From a virus: a DNA stretch of 29,888 bases. The notes beneath the pieces were generated by a model. The model saw only the letters and a list, made by a program, of their open reading frames with translations, searched no databases and was not told where the DNA came from. Position 1 is the stretch's first letter. Each line of letters begins with the position of its first letter. Location: positions 1-29,888 of IMG/VR virus record IMGVR_UViG_3300035456_000001, one strand, 5' to 3'. Below are positions 3,912 through 26,753 of the stretch, one piece after another. A program made the position numbers and the translations under genes.

Positions 3912-4358
3912 TTAGAACTCCTTTACAAAATGCTGTTCTACTAATTCATAATCTAATCTATTATAAAGATTAGGTAACCTATTTTCAAAAGAATCGGCAA
4001 GGTGAATCATAGCACAGGCATCACAATTATTTCTTTTCGCCCAAGCTTCAAAAGCCTTGATTAATTTCAAACCACTTCCTCTGTGTTCTGGAGTAACATA
4101 CCAAAAAGTTTCTACTGCTGTAATTCTTGGATAATGTAAGTCAGGACCTTTAACACATCCAAGTCCACCAACCATCTTATCTATGCTTCCACTTTCATCT
4201 GTAAGAATTATCATTGCCCCCATATTATCAGTAATTAACTTTTTATAAACTTTAGTAGCATGATCTATATCTACTTTTACAAACTTAGTACACTCTTCAA
4301 ATTTAGTCATAAAAGTGGATACTGCTCTTACTTCACTTATTAAAGCTTCTCTAATCAT
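3912..4358 (-). CDS. GNAT-family N-acetyltransferase
   Basis: This 148-residue protein has the GNAT fold pattern: beta strands around MGAMIILTDESG and KMVGGLGCVK, then strand AVETFWYVTPEHRGSGL, where residues 92-97 (HRGSGL) form the acetyl-CoA pyrophosphate loop (consensus Q/R-x-x-G-x-G/A). A helix follows (LKLIKAFEAWAKRN). The C-terminal LYNRLDYELVEQHF has the Tyr commonly used as general acid. The family transfers acetyl from acetyl-CoA to an amine; the substrate here is unknown. Its ATG overlaps the stop of the radical SAM gene (ATGA), so the two are very probably co-translated and may work together. GNAT genes occur in virion clusters of other podoviruses, often without known targets. Confidence 0.85.
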   Translation of the reverse strand: MIREALISEVRAVSTFMTKFEECTKFVKVDIDHATKVYKKLITDNMGAMIILTDESGSIDKMVGGLGCVKGPDLHYPRITAVETFWYVTPEHRGSGLKLIKAFEAWAKRNNCDACAMIHLADSFENRLPNLYNRLDYELVEQHFVKEF

Positions 4359-5425
4359 ACTACAAACTCCGAATAAACATATTTTTCATTAGCTACTGCG
4401 TACTCTTCAAACGAAGAATTAAGAAACAAAGTTTCTTCCTTAGTTATACTTCTCTTATACCCATTCTTAGTTCCAATAAAAGGTTGCACAAGAGAAGGAA
4501 ATATATGCTTATTATCTTTTATATTATTTACTTCACTTACTATATCAGCATAACTTTCATCTTCAAAACCAAGTAATAAATTACCATGATAGTTTATTTT
4601 ATACTTTTCAAGTAAATCTATAGTCTTATAAATATCTTCAACTCTTAACTGCTTATTCATCGCGTCAAGTTTCTCTTGCTTAAAAGATTCAATACCAATT
4701 AAAAAGTATTTACAATAACTATCTTTTGCTACTTTAGCCATTTCATTATCAAACTTGTCACATCTGATACTTGCACTCCAAGGAATTTTTCTAGTCTTCA
4801 TTTCAGAACACAAATGAATAAATCTAGACTTACTAAAATTAAAAGTATTATCATTAAATATAACTAATTCAATACCATACTTAATTATATAAAAATCAAC
4901 TTCTTCCATAACACTCTTAACTTTTCTGTATCTAAACTTACAAGTTTGTGAGCAGAACGTGCAGTTAAAAACACAGCCACGAGAAGTTAATACCCCGATG
5001 TGCTTTAGCTCATTTGCTTCAAAGTACTTGTCAATACCAAACCCATCAAAATCTGGGTAAGGTATCTTATCAATATTTATATCTTTATCATACTCACCTA
5101 CACAAACAGAGTCTACATGCTGCCTCATCTCTTCTTCACAAAATGTTCCAAGTGCTCCACCAAGAGAAGTTAAAATACCAGCTTCTCTGCATATTGCTGC
5201 GTCTCTTATAATTTGATTTTTAAATGAAGCAAAACCTGTGAACATTACTAAATCTTGATTTTTTATTTCTTCCTTAAAATCATAATCATAAAGGTTATAA
5301 TTTAATATTTTTACATTATGACCCTTAGACTTAAGAATAGAGGATACATATAAAAAACCAAGTGGATAGCAACAAGCATCACTTAGTGGTATTCCATAAG
5401 TATAGCAGACAAGAGTTATATTCAT
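4355..5425 (-). CDS. Radical SAM protein with B12-binding-like N-terminus
   Basis: This 356-residue protein carries the radical SAM cluster motif CxxxCxxC at C151, C155 and C158 (TSRGCVFNCTFCSQ), which binds a 4Fe-4S cluster for S-adenosylmethionine cleavage. Further radical SAM features are NDNTF at about 191-195, GIES at 244-247 and GNLLLGF at 281-287. The first 130 residues look like the Rossmann domain of B12-binding radical SAM enzymes: PLGFLYVSSILKSKGHNVKI near the start, a SLGGALGTF loop at 87-95, and the linker KIPYPDFDGF. The cobalamin-ligating DxHxxG motif is not seen, so cobalamin binding is doubtful. The gene sits among virion genes, coupled to a GNAT acetyltransferase. The substrate is unknown; a virion or cell-envelope target is a guess. 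A GAAGG ribosome site precedes the ATG. Confidence 0.88.
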   Translation of the reverse strand: MNITLVCYTYGIPLSDACCYPLGFLYVSSILKSKGHNVKILNYNLYDYDFKEEIKNQDLVMFTGFASFKNQIIRDAAICREAGILTSLGGALGTFCEEEMRQHVDSVCVGEYDKDINIDKIPYPDFDGFGIDKYFEANELKHIGVLTSRGCVFNCTFCSQTCKFRYRKVKSVMEEVDFYIIKYGIELVIFNDNTFNFSKSRFIHLCSEMKTRKIPWSASIRCDKFDNEMAKVAKDSYCKYFLIGIESFKQEKLDAMNKQLRVEDIYKTIDLLEKYKINYHGNLLLGFEDESYADIVSEVNNIKDNKHIFPSLVQPFIGTKNGYKRSITKEETLFLNSSFEEYAVANEKYVYSEFVV

Positions 5426-5438
5426 CTTACCTTCACTT

Positions 5439-5460
5439 TCAGAATGGTCAATTATTGACC
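5439..5460. promoter_or_regulatory. Dispersed palindrome site 1, upstream of radical SAM gene
   Basis: GGTCAATTATTGACC (5446-5460) is a perfect palindrome apart from its central base and extends by one more pair (T...A). It is preceded by the flank TCAGAAT. The site lies 20 bp upstream of the radical SAM ATG on the minus strand, in the short gap behind the 122-residue gene. Identical or near-identical sites occur around 12786, 22757, 25230 and 27774. An operator for a phage or host regulator is the likeliest reading. Confidence 0.6.
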
Positions 5461-14172: not shown

Positions 14173-15372
14173 TTAACCCCACAGCCGGACTGCAAGCTCC
14201 GGATAAAGTGTCTTAGTACCATACAGAATATCCAGACGAATAATCTCTTCATCTGCATCAATATCGTACTGTTTAACAACACGAATCGAGATACCTGCAT
14301 CTGCATCAGTCTCTCTTGCGCCCCAGACATTTGCCGGCATTTCAATAGGAACTGTTACCAAAGCAAAAGCATTAGGATGAAATACAAGATTCTGCGGATA
14401 CGCTGTTGAAGCAGTACCAACAAAAGTTAAAGCAGCTGTAGTTAAAGGCAGTGCATCAACATTAGAGTACGGATTCGTTGCTCCATAAACGCAAGTCGGA
14501 GTAATAGGAATCGTCATATCTGCACTTGTATCAGCCGTAGTAGTCGTTACTGCCCATCTACGCAGATTACCTGTCGATACACCATTTACAGGATTAACTG
14601 CATTAGTAGCTGCTACTGTAAAAATATCACCTTTGTTAACTGTATTACTTCCACTCCATCCATTAGTTACAAAGCTTGTAGCACCCGTAACAGTTGCACC
14701 ATTCATCAACGGAGTAGCACCAGCAGTAAACGCACCTGTCGTGTGACGATTAATATTCTGATCTGAATAAATATTCAGGTTAGCGATAGTACCAAGATAG
14801 CCTTTAGTAATAATATCATTTGCAGGTTTAGCAGCAAACGTGCCTTTCAAACCATCAGCCAATGCCCAGTTTGCACTAGGATTAACTACCGCAACTCGTC
14901 CTTCACTAGGAACTGCTTCATCATCCAGTATTGTCTGAGCATCACCAAGGACTTTGAAAGTCGATGGAGTTGTTCCAGGAGTACCAGCATAATTATAAAC
15001 ATCTGTATACAGTCCGCACAGATCATAGTCAACCGTATTAGCTAACGAATCGCATGCCGGAGAAATATAACGCTTACTATAGTCTTCAATAGTAGTCGTC
15101 AAATCAACTGAACTAAATGCCCAGCTAACATGCGCCTGTGTAGACATAGTAATTGAAGTACTCGGCTCAGAAATATTTGTATTACTTCTTGCCTGAGTCT
15201 TGGTTGTCCGAAACTTGTTCGGTTTCCTTACAGTAATAGTCTGCCCAACTTTGACAAACTCATTCTTGTAAGCCATATGTACGTGCCTAGCCATTGCCAA
15301 GTGATTGATCAACTGCATCAACGATTCTTTAGCTATAATGGTAGGGGTAAGTAAAGTATTACTTGAAGTCAT
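14173..15372 (-). CDS. Major capsid protein, P22 coat family
   Basis: This 399-residue protein (P22 coat is 430) has the coat-family N-terminus: TPTIIAKESLMQLINHLAMA, then EFVKVGQTITVRKPNKFR, a region of short strands (ISEPSTSITMSTQAHVSWAF), and DLTTTIEDYSKRYISPACDS followed by VDYDLCGLYTDVYNY. The C-terminal half has FHPNAFALVTVPIEMP, then SIRVVKQYDIDADEEIIRLD and LYGTKTLYPELAVRLWG, all typical of the family. The protein has the HK97 fold and builds the icosahedral shell. The scaffold gene lies directly upstream, 13 bp away, and the portal further upstream, the usual order. AAGGAG precedes ATG 15372. Confidence 0.9.
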   Translation of the reverse strand: MTSSNTLLTPTIIAKESLMQLINHLAMARHVHMAYKNEFVKVGQTITVRKPNKFRTTKTQARSNTNISEPSTSITMSTQAHVSWAFSSVDLTTTIEDYSKRYISPACDSLANTVDYDLCGLYTDVYNYAGTPGTTPSTFKVLGDAQTILDDEAVPSEGRVAVVNPSANWALADGLKGTFAAKPANDIITKGYLGTIANLNIYSDQNINRHTTGAFTAGATPLMNGATVTGATSFVTNGWSGSNTVNKGDIFTVAATNAVNPVNGVSTGNLRRWAVTTTTADTSADMTIPITPTCVYGATNPYSNVDALPLTTAALTFVGTASTAYPQNLVFHPNAFALVTVPIEMPANVWGARETDADAGISIRVVKQYDIDADEEIIRLDILYGTKTLYPELAVRLWG

Positions 15373-15385
15373 TTTAAACTACTCC

Positions 15386-16444
15386 TTATTTCTTTTGGCT
15401 CTCTCTCCAAGCCCTATATTCCTTTTGATTCATTTTACTTGGATCTTTTTCAACAACACCAAGTGTCTTAACAGGCTTTATAGGAGGTGGAGCAGAAGAT
15501 ACCTTTTTAATTTGTTTAACAACAGGTTTAGGTTTAGCTTTCTCTTTTTCCTCTTCTGTATCTTCATCAGTAGTAACATCCTGAGATACATTCTCAGGTT
15601 CCTCAGCTAACGCAACCCCTATCTTTCCAACTTCAATCGCAGCTTTCTTTGCTGACATAGCAGAAATCTCACTAGCCAAATCTGGGTTCAAACCAAGATA
15701 ATGCATAATATCTTCTGAAGCATCAGATTCAATAATTATTCCAAGTAACTCAGGAGTAATCTTAAGATCTGTATTTCCAGCAGTCTCATCCCAGTCTTCA
15801 TATTTTACCTTACCGCGCTCAACCAGACTCACTATTGTTTCTTGTAACTCAGTTTCTGCTCTTAGCTCTTCAGCCGTTTTCTTACCTTTATCAGTTTCTT
15901 CTTGCTTAGTCTTTAACTTTTGGTCAATCTTCCAATCTGTAAGAGCTTCTGTAAAGTCTTCATCACTCTCAAAATCTGCCCTCTTGGGTTTATCTGTTGC
16001 TGGAACATTAGACTTAAGTTTCAAGTTTTCAGCTTCAAGTTCCTGAACTTTATTTTTAAAGAAGTCCCGTTCTCGTTCAGCAACACGTTGATTCTTCACT
16101 GCCTTATCAATGCGCTTTTGAACACTTTCAGGAACCTTCTCAGCCTTTTCTTTTTCTAACTTCTCCTTTGCTTCTCTTTCAGTCTTTGCCTCTTCTGTTT
16201 CCTCTACTTCTTCTTCAGTATCTTCTTCATCTTCCTTCTTCTTTTTCTCTTCCTCTTCTTTCTTTTTCTTAGCTTCAGCTTTTTCTTTTAGTATTTCTGG
16301 GTGTTCAAGCCTTTCATCTTCTTCATTAACCTCATCCGAAGAAGTAATAATCGGAGTAGTAGAATCAACTGACATAAGGTTCGGACTATCAACTCCATTA
16401 ATAGGTTGGTTAATTGCTTCAACTTCAAATATGGATTTTAACAT
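15386..16444 (-). CDS. Scaffolding protein
   Basis: This 352-residue protein is highly charged and mostly helical. A Glu/Lys-rich coiled coil spans about residues 40-150 (EKAEAKKKKEEEEKKKKE, KEKLEKEKAEK, FFKNKVQELEAENLKLKS), followed by an acidic globular part (DWDETAGNTDLKITPELLGI) and a basic C-terminal tail ending KEYRAWRESQKK, the kind of coat-binding helix P22-type scaffolds use. Position between portal and coat supports the call. The ATG at 16444 is preferred over the TTG at 16450, because GAGGAG lies eight bases before the ATG and only two before the TTG. Scaffolds guide coat assembly and leave the prohead. Confidence 0.8.
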   Translation of the reverse strand: MLKSIFEVEAINQPINGVDSPNLMSVDSTTPIITSSDEVNEEDERLEHPEILKEKAEAKKKKEEEEKKKKEDEEDTEEEVEETEEAKTEREAKEKLEKEKAEKVPESVQKRIDKAVKNQRVAERERDFFKNKVQELEAENLKLKSNVPATDKPKRADFESDEDFTEALTDWKIDQKLKTKQEETDKGKKTAEELRAETELQETIVSLVERGKVKYEDWDETAGNTDLKITPELLGIIIESDASEDIMHYLGLNPDLASEISAMSAKKAAIEVGKIGVALAEEPENVSQDVTTDEDTEEEKEKAKPKPVVKQIKKVSSAPPPIKPVKTLGVVEKDPSKMNQKEYRAWRESQKK

Positions 16445-16466
16445 TAGCAAATCTCCTCGATCTGAG

Positions 16467-16504: not shown

Positions 16505-16708
16505 TTAAGCCTTATCCATCATAAGACTTCTAATCACACTATGATCTCCATCACCAGCAGCCTTCATAGCATTCTTATACTTAGGTTTCTTTCCTGTAGC
16601 AAGTGAAAGACCAGTAGCATGCTGAGCAATGGCTGCTGCAGAACCTTTACTCTTTCCTTTCGACTTTAACTTCTTATAGAGAATATCTACTTTAGAACCT
16701 TTAGGCAT
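16505..16708 (-). CDS. Small basic protein between portal and scaffold
   Basis: This 67-residue, Lys-rich protein reads MPKGSKVDILYKKLKSKGKS, with the recurring phage motif KGxAAAIAQxxTGxSLxTG (KGSAAAIAQHATGLSLATG, about residues 22-40). Small proteins of this pattern are commonly encoded beside phage portal genes; their function is unknown to me. The ATG overlaps the portal stop by 8 bp, implying translational coupling with the portal. Confidence 0.65.
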   Translation of the reverse strand: MPKGSKVDILYKKLKSKGKSKGSAAAIAQHATGLSLATGKKPKYKNAMKAAGDGDHSVIRSLMMDKA

Positions 16709-19700
16709 TTTGATTATCTCCTTGTACTGGCATAGGTTGCTCAGCAGGCTGCGAGTTTTCTTGCGGAGCAGGTTGATTAAGTGCAGCTAACTTATCATGC
16801 TCTTCTTTTAAGACTTCTCCTAACAAACTTCTTACTTGCTCTTTACTTTCAGCAGCAAGCATTTCATTTTTAATTATAAGCTCCTTTAGCTTTTCTTGTT
16901 CTTGCTGTAACTTTAACTTAGCCTCTTCCAAACTTAACTGAGACTCTTGTAGTTTAATCTGTGCCTCTTGCATCGCCATCTGTTGCTGCGGGTTTGGAGG
17001 CGGAGGGGGCGGAGGCGCCGGAGCTTCTTTCCCCTCCTTTTTAGCCTCGTCTGCAGCCATCTTAGCCTTGATCTCAGGAGGAAGGAGAAAAGCGAGACGC
17101 TGCGCAACTTCTTCAGAACCAGGCCAATCCTGATACTTCGCATACAAGTCACCAATAACGCCGGCAGCTTGTGGGTAGTATTGTATAAACTCTTGCATTG
17201 ACTGTCTAGCTTCAGTACGTTGAGTAGTAAAGCTTGGACCGACAGTTACTGTAATGTCATAACTTCCTACTGACAAATCATTAATAATCTTCTCAGGGTT
17301 TTCTGGATCTTCAACATTTACAGCATCAAATCCATAACTTCCATCATCTAAACCAAGACGAATTACTCTTTCTGTATCTAAAATACCAGGAGCAATATCA
17401 ACCAAAATTCTTCCAAGATGCTCAATTGATCTTGAAAGATTATCAATAAAGGAGAATGTTCCAACATCACCTTCTTGTTTACGTTCTCTAATAGCTACAC
17501 CACTTCGTTCATTGCTGTGCATACCAAGACTTGCTCTTTGCAAGCCAATAGTATCACGCATTTCTTGATCTGTAGTAGCTGTGTTCTCACTCATAGCAGA
17601 AGAAGCTTGCGGAGGTGGTTCTCTGTGAGGCCAGCCTGGAGCTTCTTTATCTATCTCTACCAATATATAAGGATAATTCTTTCGTTGAAGATTATCCCAC
17701 TGAGTTTTATGCTCTCCAAGTTGTCTCGCAGTAATAAAGTAAGGTACTCTTGGTTGAAGAGCAGTTACTTCTGTATCAGTTGAATTATGAGTAGGCACCA
17801 TTCCTATACCAGCCAAATAAAGACTTGTTGGACTATCAACCGTAATACACTTTACTGGAACAGAAGGGACTTCTTGGATAGACTTAATACTATATCTCTT
17901 AGTACGTCTAGCCTCTTCTTCACGATTTCCAAGTCCTGCTAACTTACGAGAAAGTCTAAATACTGGTAAACGAGTAGTAAACGAAAACTGATACTCAATT
18001 TGTCTGTGTGAACTATTAGTAAGTTTATTAAAAGCTGTTCTATTACGAACACAATGCTTTGATTTGATACCAAGAGTTCTAAGTAACTCTGCAAAACCTT
18101 TTGCAAGTTCTAACTCCACAGTAGTAAAACTACAAGAACCATTTGTAGTACTAACAGAACCATCAGTATCCATTAAACCTTGCAATAATTGAAGTCGTTG
18201 TTCTTTTGAACCTCTAACATAGGAATAAGGAATATGTTTATTATTTAGTAAACCAAGTGCAGTAAATTTACTCCTTATTCCAAGAATTGTTTGCCGAATA
18301 CAATTTCCACTATCATTATGATAATCACTTAAATTACAACCAAACCACTTTAAGTGTGATGATAGTTCTAATGCATCATCTTTATGTTGAGTAAAGTTTG
18401 GTTCTGCAGAGGTACCATCTCCAAGCCATACTCCTAACACATAAGGAGGAATAGAATATTCTTGTTCTGGCAAATCTAAAGGTTCAGTTACGTTTATAAA
18501 GTGTTTTCCAGGAACTAACTGATCAGTAGTTATAGTTTTATTTTCCCAATTAAAGGTCTGTGATGTTCTTTTTCCTCGTTCTTCTACAGTCCAAAGATGT
18601 TTAATATCAGCTACTATAGTAGAATTATCGTCAAATGTAACCTCTAAACATTTTCTATTTTCAAAAACCTGACTAATATTAATAACAGTACAAACTTTAC
18701 CTTTATCATCAAAAACTTTCTGACCAACAAGAATATTTTCCATTGTTAGCCACCCAGATGGAGTAGGTATTAGTGTATTTAAGGAAAGAGCTCTCCAGTA
18801 ATTATACATTCTTTGAGGATCTTTACCATGACGAATAAGACCTTCAATAATTTTCTTCCCACCTACATTAATTTCCTTACCCCATACAGGAACTATTGGG
18901 ATATATTTCTTACCAACCCAAGTAGCTTCTTCAAGTACTTCATTACCAGAACACTTGTACCATTTAACTTCGTAAGTTTCTACTTCTCTATGTTTTACTT
19001 CTTCATCACCTTCTTTAAGTTCGTCTACAATTCGGTTATCTTTAAGTAAATAAATAGTCTTTTTAACTGGTTCTTTTACAAAGTACTCAGCAAGACGAAC
19101 TGTTTTCTCATTAGCCCAGCCTTCTGTATACAAAGCATCAGCAGAATTAAACGGCATTGGCTCTTTTTTATAAGTATCTTTATACTCATCACGACCCATT
19201 TCAGTAATTATAATACAATACTCAGCATCTGAACAATCATATTCCTGATGTCTTCCCCAATATACTGCCAGAGCATTTTCAATCTTTTCTATATAGGCTT
19301 CTTGATTAAATGAAGAATCAGAAGTATACTTAGTAACTACTCTCATTGCTCCATAGCCACAAGAAACAGCATGCTCAAAAGCATGATCAACAGCTATATC
19401 AGATTTTGATATCTGCTGCACATGTTTAATCCAACCAGAAAGCAACGTAGCTACTCTTTTATCAGCTTTGTCATCAACAGGTATTACTTTAATAGCTGGT
19501 CGGTTCATTCTCTGATCGCCAACTACCTGACTAATAAACGTAGGCATTTTATTTATTTCAAGACAAGGTCTTCCATTAGCTTCTCTATCAGCTTTAATCT
19601 CAGCAGGCCATTGTTTTCCTGGAACATATATAAACTCAAGATCATCAAAAGCAGCTTTACGATTATCACCATCTTCGTCTTGAGCTACTTTGAGTCTGTC

Positions 19701-19742
19701 TTTAAGCTCATCCAAAATCTTTTTGTGCTTAGCAGATAACAT
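16701..19742 (-). CDS. Portal protein, P22 type, interrupted by an intein
   Basis: The 1013-residue precursor becomes 677 residues after intein removal, close to P22 portal (725). The N-extein has the portal pattern: YVPGKQWPAEIKADREANGR, QVVGDQRMNRPAIKV, a run around SCGYGAMRVVT, and DPQRMYNYWR (309-317). The C-extein continues STDTEVTALQPRVPYF and later LQRASLGMHSNERSGVAI. Joining residue 317 to 654 gives NYWRSTDTE, the expected continuous family motif. The C-terminus has a poly-proline stretch (about residues 904-911) and a long coiled coil (QIKLQESQLSLEEAKLKLQQ), compatible with the C-terminal barrel of P22-like portals. The dodecameric portal is the DNA entry ring and terminase dock. The intein must splice for function. 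Confidence 0.9.
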   Translation of the reverse strand: MLSAKHKKILDELKDRLKVAQDEDGDNRKAAFDDLEFIYVPGKQWPAEIKADREANGRPCLEINKMPTFISQVVGDQRMNRPAIKVIPVDDKADKRVATLLSGWIKHVQQISKSDIAVDHAFEHAVSCGYGAMRVVTKYTSDSSFNQEAYIEKIENALAVYWGRHQEYDCSDAEYCIIITEMGRDEYKDTYKKEPMPFNSADALYTEGWANEKTVRLAEYFVKEPVKKTIYLLKDNRIVDELKEGDEEVKHREVETYEVKWYKCSGNEVLEEATWVGKKYIPIVPVWGKEINVGGKKIIEGLIRHGKDPQRMYNYWRALSLNTLIPTPSGWLTMENILVGQKVFDDKGKVCTVINISQVFENRKCLEVTFDDNSTIVADIKHLWTVEERGKRTSQTFNWENKTITTDQLVPGKHFINVTEPLDLPEQEYSIPPYVLGVWLGDGTSAEPNFTQHKDDALELSSHLKWFGCNLSDYHNDSGNCIRQTILGIRSKFTALGLLNNKHIPYSYVRGSKEQRLQLLQGLMDTDGSVSTTNGSCSFTTVELELAKGFAELLRTLGIKSKHCVRNRTAFNKLTNSSHRQIEYQFSFTTRLPVFRLSRKLAGLGNREEEARRTKRYSIKSIQEVPSVPVKCITVDSPTSLYLAGIGMVPTHNSTDTEVTALQPRVPYFITARQLGEHKTQWDNLQRKNYPYILVEIDKEAPGWPHREPPPQASSAMSENTATTDQEMRDTIGLQRASLGMHSNERSGVAIRERKQEGDVGTFSFIDNLSRSIEHLGRILVDIAPGILDTERVIRLGLDDGSYGFDAVNVEDPENPEKIINDLSVGSYDITVTVGPSFTTQRTEARQSMQEFIQYYPQAAGVIGDLYAKYQDWPGSEEVAQRLAFLLPPEIKAKMAADEAKKEGKEAPAPPPPPPPNPQQQMAMQEAQIKLQESQLSLEEAKLKLQQEQEKLKELIIKNEMLAAESKEQVRSLLGEVLKEEHDKLAALNQPAPQENSQPAEQPMPVQGDNQNA
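17784..18791 (-). mobile_element. Class 3-type intein with LAGLIDADG endonuclease in the portal gene
   Basis: The 336-residue insert spans precursor residues Ala318 to Asn653. It begins ALSLNTLIPTPSGWLTM (block A with Ala rather than Cys/Ser at position 1) and ends LYLAGIGMVPTHN, followed by Ser+1. The class 3 signature is complete: Trp384 in block B (KHLW), Cys632 in block F (VKCITVD) and Thr651 in block G (PTHN). Known class 3 inteins start splicing from the block F Cys instead of residue 1. A homing endonuclease of the LAGLIDADG type sits inside: YVLGVWLGDGTS (434-445) and LLQGLMDTDGSV (519-530), both with the acidic residue, so it could be active. The reading frame is open throughout. Confidence 0.9.
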
Positions 19743-19961
19743 TTATCTAATCCTCACACCAACTAAGTTATTGTGTCTTACTAAATCTAAAACAGATAAA
19801 CCTTCTGTAAGTTTATCAAACATTTCCTGTGTTACATTTTTATAGACTGACTTATTTCCACCACCAAAGATAACTATTAAATTACCAGAAGCCTCGTTAT
19901 ACGCTATAGACTTTACATTCTCATCATGAGAAAGTACTTGTGTCAGTACTACAGCATCCAC
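19743..19961 (-). CDS. KTSC-domain-like small protein
   Basis: This 72-residue protein follows the KTSC pattern: VKSIAYNEASGNLIVIFGGGNKSVYKNV then MFDKLTEGLSVLDLV (shown in parts, positions about 16-60), where a Ser-containing strand, a strand with F-x-G-G and a Y-x-x-V hairpin are followed by a helix. The final residues of the usual motif are diverged, so this is moderate. The function of KTSC domains is unknown, though they occur often in phage and mobile-element genes. The start is GTG at 19961, with GGTGA upstream, overlapping the terminase end by 13 bp; the product stops immediately before the portal ATG. Confidence 0.55.
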   Translation of the reverse strand: MDAVVLTQVLSHDENVKSIAYNEASGNLIVIFGGGNKSVYKNVTQEMFDKLTEGLSVLDLVRHNNLVGVRIR

Positions 19962-22441
19962 GCAGATTCACCATAACCATTACTATAATTTCTTTTAACT
20001 TCTTCTTGCTTCAGCTTAGCAAATACTTTCGTAGCACTGTTTGCAAAGTACTCAGTAAGTCCAAGTGCATCAGCAATATTAGGAGAAGCAATTCCTCTTG
20101 CTTTCATATCTTTCTTAGACTCTACAATTATTCCACCATGCTGATTAAATTTATACCTAACTGTAGCAAGTTCATTTGCAAGTTGGTTTCCTAAAGACTC
20201 TGTATCACCAACAAGTTTTACTTCTGGAAAACTATACTTACCAAGTATACAGTTATCTCTAACTCTTACCCAAAGTTCATCCCGTAGTTTATGAAATTTT
20301 TCTATGTTACTTGAAGAATTTGTTACATTTACTTGGTAAAGATTTCGTAAATTATGTTTTTCAAGCCAGTCTGCTACACCAGCACCAACACCTATAACAT
20401 CTATAGCTACACCACTAGCATTAAGTTCTTGGTAAGTTTGGTTTATAAAACCACCTAGGTCTATAGTATTAAGTTTTCTAAAAGTTTCCCAAGGATCAAT
20501 TCTAAGTCCTTGTCTTGGCAAAATTATAGATGCGTCGCTGCCATAGCGTGCCACGTCTACACCTAGATATAGTGGCTCATCTTCAGCAACATCAAAAGTG
20601 TTACCAATACACTGAATTGCTGCCCACAAAGGAATTAAAGTATTTTCATCTTGTAACGGAGGATTTCCTTCTACACGTATTCTAAAAATATTAGAATCTA
20701 TACCATACTTTCTAGCAAAATATTCTGGCATAGACTTATCTACATTACTAGATTTTCTTGAATCCCAATGAAGTCTATACCAATCCTGCTTAGCAGACTC
20801 ACTAAAATGTGTATCATAATAATAACCAGAATTACGAGTCATATTACCAATAAGCAAAACCTTATTGTCTGGCTGAGACATGGCGCCTTCAAGTGGTATA
20901 AAGGTTGGGTCAGGTATTCCAGAACTCTCGTCACATATGATTAAAAGATGGTCACCATGTAGCCCAGCCAGAGTTTCAGCTTGTTCATCTTTAGTTGCTC
21001 TAACAGAAGGAGAAATTAATCTCAACCACCACTCTTTACTAGCATCTTTTTGTATAACAGAATCCTTTAATATTCTAAATTCGTCTGCAACCAACGACTG
21101 TCTAAGCCACTTAGATATTTCAGCTAAAAATATATCTCGTAATTGTCTGTTTGTAGGAGCAGTAACTACAACTTTTGCATAAGGCCTTGTTACAAGAAAC
21201 CATAAAGCAATCCACGAAGCTACGGCATCTTTTCCTGTATTATGTGTTACTGTAAAATCACCAAGAACATATAAGCTATTCCCATCTAACTCAAATCCAT
21301 AATAGGTATCTTCAGCAAGTCTCTCAACCGAAAAACCAAAATGAAGGTTAGTTTTTAAATTTTCTAAAACCTTCTTTCTTTCTATTTGTGTAGGAATTAA
21401 ATGTGTATCACCAGAAATATAAATAACATTTTTATAACTCTTTTTTTGGATATTCTTATAAGTCCATGTGCCAATAGTCTTTTGTAATGTAGCCTTAAGA
21501 CCAACCGATTGGCACAAAAATAAAATGTCTTCTGCTACTTCATCAGATTTTTGAGTAATAGAAAATTGTCTAGAGTGTGCATCTTTAGAACCATCAGAAT
21601 CTATTAAGCCAGCAAGTAATTGCAAGCGTGCTTTCTTAGAATTAAATAAATACTCCTTTGGAATATGCTTATTACTATATAAATTATAGTATTTAAGTGC
21701 AGCTATAAAAGGATTTTGTAAGTTATTACTTTCTTGTACAGTAGAAAAGACTAGCCGATGCCTAATATCCTGATACGTAGACATTTTAAGATTATTAGCT
21801 TCTCCAAAAGCTTGCCATATGCCAATAACCTCTTTATCTATATTAGTTAATTCAGCTTGATTATGTGTTCCATCTCCAAGCCAAAGACCAAGAATATATG
21901 GAGGAATCTTTACATTATATTCAGGATATTCAATTCCTACTCTGTAACCAACAAACTTTTTTCTTTTATATTCAGGCCAAGATAAATAATCTCTGACAGA
22001 GACATTTATTTTATCACCTGCTTTATATCTAGCAGTTTTACCTAAATTACCACTACACACAAGTGAAAGAATATGACTCATGTTTACATCATAGTAAGTA
22101 TTATTATGATACTTAATACGTGCCATTTCTTCTGTACCAGAATAAAGTTTAAGAACTGTTCTAGGAGTATTATCATCTCCCATAATAAGATCTCCAACTT
22201 TAATATCTTGTACTGCTTTAAAACCATAAGGATACATATGTATAATGGCATTTCTTGCATGACAGCCGTGCCCAGAACGTACTGTTATACGCTTTTCCTT
22301 ACCAATAGCTTGTAATAACTCAATCTGTTGCTCAGTTGGCTCAGCTTTAATACACTCCTTCACGAACTGAAGAGGAGAATTCTTCCACTCCTTTAGTTTA
22401 TTAATAACTGATTTATGTATGTCAGGAGTATTAAGTTCCAC
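19949..22441 (-). CDS. Terminase large subunit, interrupted by an intein in the Walker A loop
   Basis: The 830-residue precursor becomes 488 residues after intein removal, the usual TerL length. The Walker A motif is split: RSGHG (55-59) then TGKDA after the intein, together giving SGHGTGKD. Walker B is LLIICDES (499-506, catalytic E505). The nuclease domain shows LGVDVARYGSDASI (D629) and, near the C-terminus, SPNIADALGLTEYFA (D791). The protein pumps DNA into the prohead through the portal and cuts the concatemer. Upstream are an HNH-like protein and the small subunit; downstream the KTSC-like gene overlaps by 13 bp. Splicing is essential, because the intein removes the ATP-binding loop's continuity. 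Confidence 0.93.
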   Translation of the reverse strand: MELNTPDIHKSVINKLKEWKNSPLQFVKECIKAEPTEQQIELLQAIGKEKRITVRSGHGCHARNAIIHMYPYGFKAVQDIKVGDLIMGDDNTPRTVLKLYSGTEEMARIKYHNNTYYDVNMSHILSLVCSGNLGKTARYKAGDKINVSVRDYLSWPEYKRKKFVGYRVGIEYPEYNVKIPPYILGLWLGDGTHNQAELTNIDKEVIGIWQAFGEANNLKMSTYQDIRHRLVFSTVQESNNLQNPFIAALKYYNLYSNKHIPKEYLFNSKKARLQLLAGLIDSDGSKDAHSRQFSITQKSDEVAEDILFLCQSVGLKATLQKTIGTWTYKNIQKKSYKNVIYISGDTHLIPTQIERKKVLENLKTNLHFGFSVERLAEDTYYGFELDGNSLYVLGDFTVTHNTGKDAVASWIALWFLVTRPYAKVVVTAPTNRQLRDIFLAEISKWLRQSLVADEFRILKDSVIQKDASKEWWLRLISPSVRATKDEQAETLAGLHGDHLLIICDESSGIPDPTFIPLEGAMSQPDNKVLLIGNMTRNSGYYYDTHFSESAKQDWYRLHWDSRKSSNVDKSMPEYFARKYGIDSNIFRIRVEGNPPLQDENTLIPLWAAIQCIGNTFDVAEDEPLYLGVDVARYGSDASIILPRQGLRIDPWETFRKLNTIDLGGFINQTYQELNASGVAIDVIGVGAGVADWLEKHNLRNLYQVNVTNSSSNIEKFHKLRDELWVRVRDNCILGKYSFPEVKLVGDTESLGNQLANELATVRYKFNQHGGIIVESKKDMKARGIASPNIADALGLTEYFANSATKVFAKLKQEEVKRNYSNGYGESAWML
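21239..22264 (-). mobile_element. Class 1-type intein with LAGLIDADG endonuclease in terminase Walker A
   Basis: The 342-residue intein spans precursor residues Cys60 to Asn401. It starts CHARNAIIHMYPYGF (nucleophilic Cys1) and ends YVLGDFTVTHN followed by Thr+1, so ordinary class 1 splicing is expected. Block B shows VNMSHILSL without the class 3 Trp, and block F (YYGFELD) has no Cys, in contrast with the portal intein. LAGLIDADG motifs are YILGLWLGDGTH (182-193) and LLAGLIDSDGSK (275-286). Insertion between Gly59 and Thr402 lies in the most conserved DNA of the gene, as is usual for homing sites. Confidence 0.9.
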
Positions 22442-25244: not shown

Positions 25245-25264
25245 ACGTTTCTTAAATATAACTA

Positions 25265-25779: not shown

Positions 25780-26193
25780 ATGCAAAAGGGAGTGATTCAG
25801 AACGAAGACTGTGTGATTAAAGTCCTGACGGAAGGTAGAGAGTTTGTGCTGGTTTGCGAAGATGAAAAAGATGCACACTCTAAGCGAGTATCTTTATATA
25901 ATGCAAGAAGAAGACTATCCGCCGTTGACCAGAGAAAAATAGTTATTCACAAGGAAAGAATGAAGGATAACTGGGTAGTAAGAGTTTATAGAGGAAGTCC
26001 TAATATTATGGAAGTAGTTAATGGAGAGCTTGTACCTTATGAAGAAATAGCCACGTTGTCTGAAACTGGAAATAAACTACTTTCTGAAATGTTAAGTAAA
26101 GGAATGAATGAAGAAGAAGTATTTGACATACTTAAAGAAAGAGGTGAAGCAGAGAAGTCTATTAGAGAAGAAATAAGGAAACTGAGTATATGA
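25780..26193 (+). CDS. Unknown 137-residue early-region protein
   Basis: The ATG at 25780 is preferred over the one at 25744 because the promoter -10 box overlaps the latter and AAAGGAG precedes the former. The N-terminal half has several strands (VIKVLTEGREFVLVCEDEKD; RKIVIHKERMKDNWVVRVYR) and contains a basic NARRRLSAVDQRK stretch; the C-terminal half is a charged helical region (MLSKGMNEEEVFDILKERGE). No family recognised. It overlaps the following HNH-AP2 gene by 4 bp (ATGA), indicating translational coupling. Confidence 0.6.
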   Translation: MQKGVIQNEDCVIKVLTEGREFVLVCEDEKDAHSKRVSLYNARRRLSAVDQRKIVIHKERMKDNWVVRVYRGSPNIMEVVNGELVPYEEIATLSETGNKLLSEMLSKGMNEEEVFDILKERGEAEKSIREEIRKLSI

Positions 26194-26753
26194 GGCTTAT
26201 TAGGTGTCTTGGTAAGAAGTCAGCAATGGTAGATGATGCTGACTATGATAGACTAAAGAAGTTCTTCTGGAAAGCTGTTCCTGCTGGGAAGACTTTTTAT
26301 GCTATGAGAAAGCCCACTGGCTCTAAGTGGTATAATTGGAATATGTACTGGGATATTATGGGTAAGCCAGAAAAGGGTTTTGTAGTAGATCATAAGAATG
26401 GGTATGGACTTGATTACCAGAGAAATAATTTAAGTATTATAACAACAAGACAAAACGCTCAGAATAAACATAGTAAAAAGACTTCAAAATATTGCGGAGT
26501 TTCTTTAGATAAATCTAACAAGTGGCGGGCACAAATTACTGTATTAAATGAGGTTGTTTATCTTGGTACTTACGAAACAGAAGAAGAAGCGTACGAAGTT
26601 TATAAAAGTAAAGCTGAATTGTTTTCAGAGGTATTAGATAATACTCCGTTACCAATTAAAACAGAAGAAGAAACAGACATAGAAAGACAGAAAGTTCTTA
26701 TGAGAAAAGATAAATGGACTGAGGAACAAATAAAGGAGTATTTTAATGATTAA
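26190..26753 (+). CDS. HNH endonuclease with AP2 DNA-binding domain (homing-type)
   Basis: This 187-residue protein combines an HNH nuclease (VVDHKNGYGLDYQRNNLSII, residues about 65-84, then TTRQNAQNK) with a C-terminal AP2-like domain (YCGVSLDKSNKWRAQITV, then YLGTYETEEEAYEVYKS; about 101-140). Phage HNH-AP2 proteins are free-standing homing endonucleases that spread themselves into related phages. Residues past 145 form a charged tail (TEEETDIERQKVLMRKDKWT) that may belong to a second helix pair. It starts inside the end of the previous gene and is followed by a small gene overlapping its last codons, so it is embedded in an operon. Confidence 0.88.
   Translation: MRLIRCLGKKSAMVDDADYDRLKKFFWKAVPAGKTFYAMRKPTGSKWYNWNMYWDIMGKPEKGFVVDHKNGYGLDYQRNNLSIITTRQNAQNKHSKKTSKYCGVSLDKSNKWRAQITVLNEVVYLGTYETEEEAYEVYKSKAELFSEVLDNTPLPIKTEEETDIERQKVLMRKDKWTEEQIKEYFND

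Follow-up and report, generated by a model that had tools for sequence, protein, structure and literature searches.

The portal gene of a P22-like phage, found in a 29.9-kb IMG/VR virus record (29,888 nt, analysed as a whole and hereafter called the window), is interrupted by an insert. Very probably this insert is a class 3 intein that splices in cis, carries a LAGLIDADG homing endonuclease and lives as a parasite in the portal stem. The insertion site is fixed, and is in use by at least eight phage lineages.

The portal gene and its insert

Features of the window are listed in Table 1. The interrupted gene resides in a P22-like packaging block, together with terminase, scaffold and coat genes. 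The Pfam model P22_portal (PF16510) matches both flanks of the insert (E 1.5e-161, whole protein), and the joined exteins match the portal structures 7sfs (E 6e-41) and 5jj1 (E 6.5e-32), of the Sf6 and P22 portals. The insert is in frame, begins with ALSLNTLIPTPSGW, ends with GMVPTHN and is followed by STDTEV. LAGLIDADG_3 (PF14528) matches it at 7.3e-11. The Pfam intein splicing model PF14890 found no match anywhere in the window, so that the portal intein needs other means of recognition. The initial annotation had placed the insert in a P22-like portal, at coordinates which proved exact, and had described a signature made by Ala1, W384, C632 and T651. Each of these residues was found at its position (W384, C632 and T651 of the precursor are W67, C315 and T334 of the intein), and the intein ends with THN/S.

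Table 1. Coordinates of the portal gene, its predicted intein, and other features of the window
Feature	Position	Strand	Remarks
GNAT acetyltransferase gene	3912-4358	-	adjoins the radical SAM gene
B12-binding radical SAM protein gene	4355-5425	-	
Coat gene	14173-15372		
Scaffold gene	15386-16450		
P22-like portal precursor gene (N-extein, intein, C-extein)	16701-19742	-	1013 aa
C-extein	16701-17783	-	N-terminal start STDTEV...
Ser+1	17781-17783	-	first C-extein residue, predicted branch-point nucleophile
Block G, Thr334-His335-Asn336	17784-17792	-	Thr of the WCT triplet, penultimate His, predicted cyclising Asn
Predicted class 3 intein with LAGLIDADG endonuclease domain	17784-18791	-	336 aa, ORF aa 318-653
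Block F, Cys315 (C632)	17847-17849	-	F:4, predicted initiating nucleophile
LAGLIDADG motif 2	18159-18188	-	LLQGLMDTDG region, LQGLMDTDGS (Asp210)
LAGLIDADG motif 1	18414-18443	-	YVLGVWLGDG (Asp125)
Block B, His65-Leu-Trp67	18591-18599	-	catalytic His (B:10), Trp (B:12) of the WCT triplet; roles from PMC5222942, PMC7664689
Intein residue 1	18789-18791	-	Ala, no nucleophile (Arg in L062, L072)
N-extein	18792-19742	-	portal residues 1-317, C-terminal end ...MYNYWR
Terminase large subunit gene	19949-22441		
Terminase intein, class 1, LAGLIDADG	21239-22264	-	342 aa; Cys1, no W at B:12, no C at F:4
Likely HNH-AP2 homing endonuclease gene	26190-26753	+	free-standing

Assignment to class 3

The portal intein was aligned with 15 class 3 and 8 class 1 phage intein references. 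Class 3 inteins feature His B:10, Trp B:12, Cys F:4, Thr G:5, His G:6, Asn G:7 and Ser+1 (PMC5222942); in the alignment H65, W67, C315, T334, H335 and N336 of the portal intein correspond to the six block positions, and are followed by Ser+1. A Cys-His-Thr triad has been described in the class 3 intein MchDnaB1 (PMC7664689). The WCT triplet is complete in all eight portal inteins known to us from this site, and position 1 is either Ala or Arg. In class 1 references, including the terminase intein of the same phage, residue 1 is Cys, the Trp position is filled by Leu and the Cys position by Gly. Class 1 inteins start with a Cys, Ser or Thr nucleophile, and such a start is ruled out because the portal intein has Ala in first position, and two relatives have Arg, which would not be tolerated in class 1. 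In class 2 inteins residue 1 is no nucleophile either, but they lack the class 3 triplet, which is complete here. Two acidic motifs, the PF14528 match and a match to PI-SceI over the whole chain mark the endonuclease domain as one of the LAGLIDADG type; the catalytic Asp residues of both motifs (D125 and D210) are conserved in 8 out of 8 portal inteins, and the motifs are intact, as had been proposed.

Phage inteins are homologous to the insert over its full length (best E 2e-59), and the solved class 3 DnaB inteins 6rix and 6bs8 are homologous at E 4e-23 to 6e-23, which together exclude a chance resemblance. In the trees, 23 class 3 rows and 8 class 1 rows separate at 100/100, both with the full intein and with the splicing domain alone; the endonuclease domain is therefore not driving the result. 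The portal inteins form a clade of their own (support 100/100 with the full intein, 98/95 with the splicing domain, 99/97 with the endonuclease domain), and group with class 3 inteins found in terminases, helicases and RecB/Cas4 proteins of phages; outside the portal clade, the branching order within class 3 is poorly resolved. Block residues and trees agree on the class 3 reading made in the initial annotation, no grouping with class 1 was seen, and by sequence the portal insert is thus assigned to class 3. Class 3 inteins had also been regarded as a minority, but 1701 have been counted in nr, 82.5% of which carry LAGLIDADG motifs (PMC7891396), so they are not rare.

Predicted fold

An AlphaFold2 model was built from the eight portal inteins (mean pLDDT 79.8), and in the model the insert has the HINT fold. 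The match to PI-SceI (Z 24.3) extends over 320 residues, that is the full length. Among the mini-inteins listed, the class 3 DnaB inteins 6bs8 and 6rix rank at the top (Z 18.6, 1.8-2.2 A, 38-40% identity), and gp41-1 (Z 16-17) and the other class 1 mini-inteins score below them. Confidence is low at residues 252-261, 291-296, and 329-336, the latter being the C-terminal eight residues, which limits what the model can tell of active-site geometry.

Occupied and vacant portals

Scans of IMG/VR identified seven further phage lineages with a portal intein at exactly this site: L001, L016, L017, L058 (also L060, and the 3' part in L067), L062, L066 and L072. About 30 distinct related portals are vacant, and feature an uninterrupted NYW-x-S-x-DTE motif or close variants. 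The joined flanks of the window portal (...MYNYWR/STDTEV...) restore the vacant-relative motif NYW[QNSTE]-S-x-DTE, and the sequence NYWRSTDTE anticipated from extein joining thus finds its counterpart in the vacant relatives. Comparison with intein-free portals, as had been suggested, indicates that the insert is facultative, rather than a fixed domain of homologous portals. The +1 Ser is invariant across occupied and vacant census rows. Occupied alleles may show a preference for TCN and GAT codons at this position.

Sequences bearing the intein are all metagenomic contigs. The insert is absent from each of the best-ranked 60 cultured or database portals, and no relative was found in bacterial and archaeal genomes searched with three portal inteins. 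A portal search of the same kinds of genomes identified three portals, all vacant, from MAGs whose taxa are unrelated.

Mobility of the portal intein

The single clade (100/100) made by the eight portal inteins is at variance with the distribution of the carriers, which are scattered among vacant portals on the portal tree, from which rows L056, L059, L063 and L065 (marked '?' in the census) were left out. Intein presence requires 7 changes on this tree, at least 6 of which are forced, much as with shuffled labels (mean 7.4). Inteins from L062 and L072 are 89% identical (pS 0.37), their exteins 80-81% (pS 0.70-0.72); the lower pS of the inteins shows that the move of the intein is younger than the split of these portals. 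In the remaining pairs, without L062/L072, pN of 0.19-0.40 versus pS of 0.55-0.76 denotes purifying selection on the intein. The inteins of L062 (3964-4986) and L072 (3852-4874), both class 3, start with Arg, odd at position 1, yet have been recently mobile.

The vacant L061 and the occupied L072 portals differ by 14 mismatches only in 1,674 bp around the site. Twelve are found within 33 nt (-8 to +25), and 2 in the other 1,641 (P 3e-20), a cluster expected as the footprint of homing with short co-conversion. The outgroup L032 has the L061 base at 6 of the 12 positions and the L072 base at 4, and sides with L061 in all three amino acid differences (Phe, Ala, Met); a gain in L072, rather than a loss in L061, is modestly favoured. 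The sequence shared by L061 and L072 extends only 159 bp upstream of the site, and the L072 allele comes from one metagenome contig, so that it may, with low probability, be a chimeric assembly. From scattered presence, identity of the site and the co-conversion footprint, which agree with it, we infer repeated homing into this spot by the predicted endonuclease. In mixed infections, the enzyme would cut intein-less portal alleles, and repair would copy the intein plus a few flanking bases. The near-identical occupied/vacant pair makes homing at the site directly testable, the expected co-conversion tract being already visible.

Proposed splicing pathway and alternative explanations

We infer splicing and cleavage from residues, phylogeny, fold, and selection, and the chemistry is modelled on that of experimentally studied class 3 inteins. 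Cys315, aided by His65 and Thr334, would attack the Arg317-Ala318 bond, generating a block F branched thioester; the acyl chain would be transferred to Ser+1, Asn336 would cyclise, and an O-to-N shift would ligate NYWR to STDTE, restoring a portal of 677 residues. The insertion site maps between residues 334 and 335 of the P22 portal, in which residues 320-343 make the stem (PMC12005531). As the insert interrupts the stem, the unspliced product probably does not function, and formation of a working ring probably requires splicing.

Cleavage without ligation is known for some HINT-fold domains, and the insert could be a domain no longer spliced and retained in the portal of the virion. This is very unlikely: the insert splits the stem and adjoins a motif that hardly varies among vacant relatives, divergent copies under purifying selection have kept all splicing residues, and a near-identical phage is vacant, its differences from the occupied one being almost confined to the vicinity of the site. 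Even less credence is given to an intein of class 1 or class 2, or a degenerate intein devoid of the N-terminal nucleophile, which would merely resemble class 3. Ala is found at position 1 in class 2 inteins also, and the HINT fold is common to all intein classes (PMC7664689), but the residues at Trp B:12, Cys F:4 and Thr G:5, kept in 8/8 copies and replaced in class 1 references by Leu and Gly at the first two, and the 100/100 split from class 1 in the tree, argue against it, as does the +1 Ser, usual for class 3, whereas in class 2 inteins it is the +1 residue that attacks directly (PMC5222942).

Conditional splicing, for example under redox control via Cys315, could time the assembly of the portal ring, given that a precursor is implausible as a ring former, that H2O2 can inhibit N-cleavage in class 3 inteins (PMC7664689), and that splicing of mycobacterial DnaB has been proposed as a stress sensor (PMC6195587). 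A patchy distribution, the many close relatives that are vacant and a homing endonuclease that looks intact fit instead a selfish element without host function, and none of the features seen suggests regulation, which makes such a switch highly improbable. The initial annotation had assumed that the DNA entry ring forms under the control of splicing; this part is unsupported, splicing being probably required, but a requirement is no evidence of regulation, and nothing else indicates it. It is similarly hard to credit that the block F Cys senses the redox state of the host, and delays assembly of the portal ring until conditions suit packaging; if true, capsid assembly would here be timed by protein splicing.

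A second intein in the terminase gene

Besides the portal insert, which is best read as a splicing and homing class 3 intein, the phage carries a second intein in the adjacent packaging gene, within the Walker A motif (SGHG/TGKD) of the terminase large subunit. The two elements share the genome and the presence of a LAGLIDADG domain, but the terminase intein differs in having Cys1, in lacking the WCT triplet, and in its Walker A site. Both inteins are found together in the window, L001 and L058; L066 has the portal intein only, L006, L009 and L025 the terminase intein only, and many phages neither. The two are distributed independently. Similar terminase inteins were observed in L001/L057, L006, L009, L025, L056, L058 and L070. 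L063, from another P22-like phage, carries a terminase gene (392-2998, + strand) in which an insert with the class 3 residue set (A1, H, W, C, THN/S) interrupts another motif of the terminase.

Other features of the genome

The free-standing gene likely encoding an HNH-AP2 homing endonuclease (Pfam matches are below cut-off) is possibly a third mobile element in a small genome. The B12-binding radical SAM protein best resembles, among NCBIfam models, PhpK-type P-methyltransferases, far below cut-off; its gene and the adjoining GNAT gene are both located among the tail genes of this P22-like phage, and represent unusual cargo. The palindrome GGTCAATNATTGACC is found at 5446, 12786, 22757, 25230, 27774 and, in a weaker version, at 813. 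These six sites with up to 2 mismatches in the window compare with 0.09 expected by chance, and are possibly operators of a phage regulator. A repeat with TTGACAACTG...TATGATA, similar to sigma-70 promoters, occurs in three copies, at 25251, 25711 and 27812, ahead of rightward genes.

Comparison with known inteins

Portal inteins (PORT) are known in cluster C1 mycobacteriophages (PMC5050341). In the accessible full-text literature, which covers few subscription papers, this was the only report on portal inteins, besides incidental mentions; in the same literature and in the sequence collections, no class 3 intein in a portal was found. The insertion site appears new for this known kind of intein, and extends the hosts of class 3 inteins to a structural, non-enzymatic protein. 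In annotating this group, a portal of about 1,000 aa is to be read as the precursor of one of about 680 aa. The C1 mycobacteriophage inteins of Tyke (L095) and ET08 (L096) reside likewise in a phage portal gene, but measure 268 and 356 aa, feature Cys1 without the class 3 triplet as a set, which makes them class 1, and occupy two other sites in a different portal family. Ghost gp104 had been taken for a C1 mycobacteriophage portal and was discarded; the portal is gp89, whose relatives carry class 1 inteins.

Class 3 inteins of phages have been identified in the TerL of Synechococcus phage B23 and of Mycobacterium phages Gaia and Nebkiss, in the DnaB of Brevibacterium phage Rousseau, and in the RecB of Mycobacterium phage Traft412. 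The portal intein is homologous to these over its full length (37-39% identity), and shares with them a non-nucleophilic position 1, the H.W, C and THN residues, the size and the LAGLIDADG domain. In contrast, its host is a portal rather than an NTPase or a nuclease, and the eight portal inteins are a clade apart. The mini-inteins MchDnaB1 (6rix/6riy) and MsmDnaB1 (6bs8) have no endonuclease domain and are located in DnaB, unlike the portal intein, but its splicing domain superposes on theirs at 1.8-2.2 A, with 38-40% identity, and H65, W67, and the Cys and Thr of the Cys-His-Thr triad and WCT set of MchDnaB1 are conserved in it.
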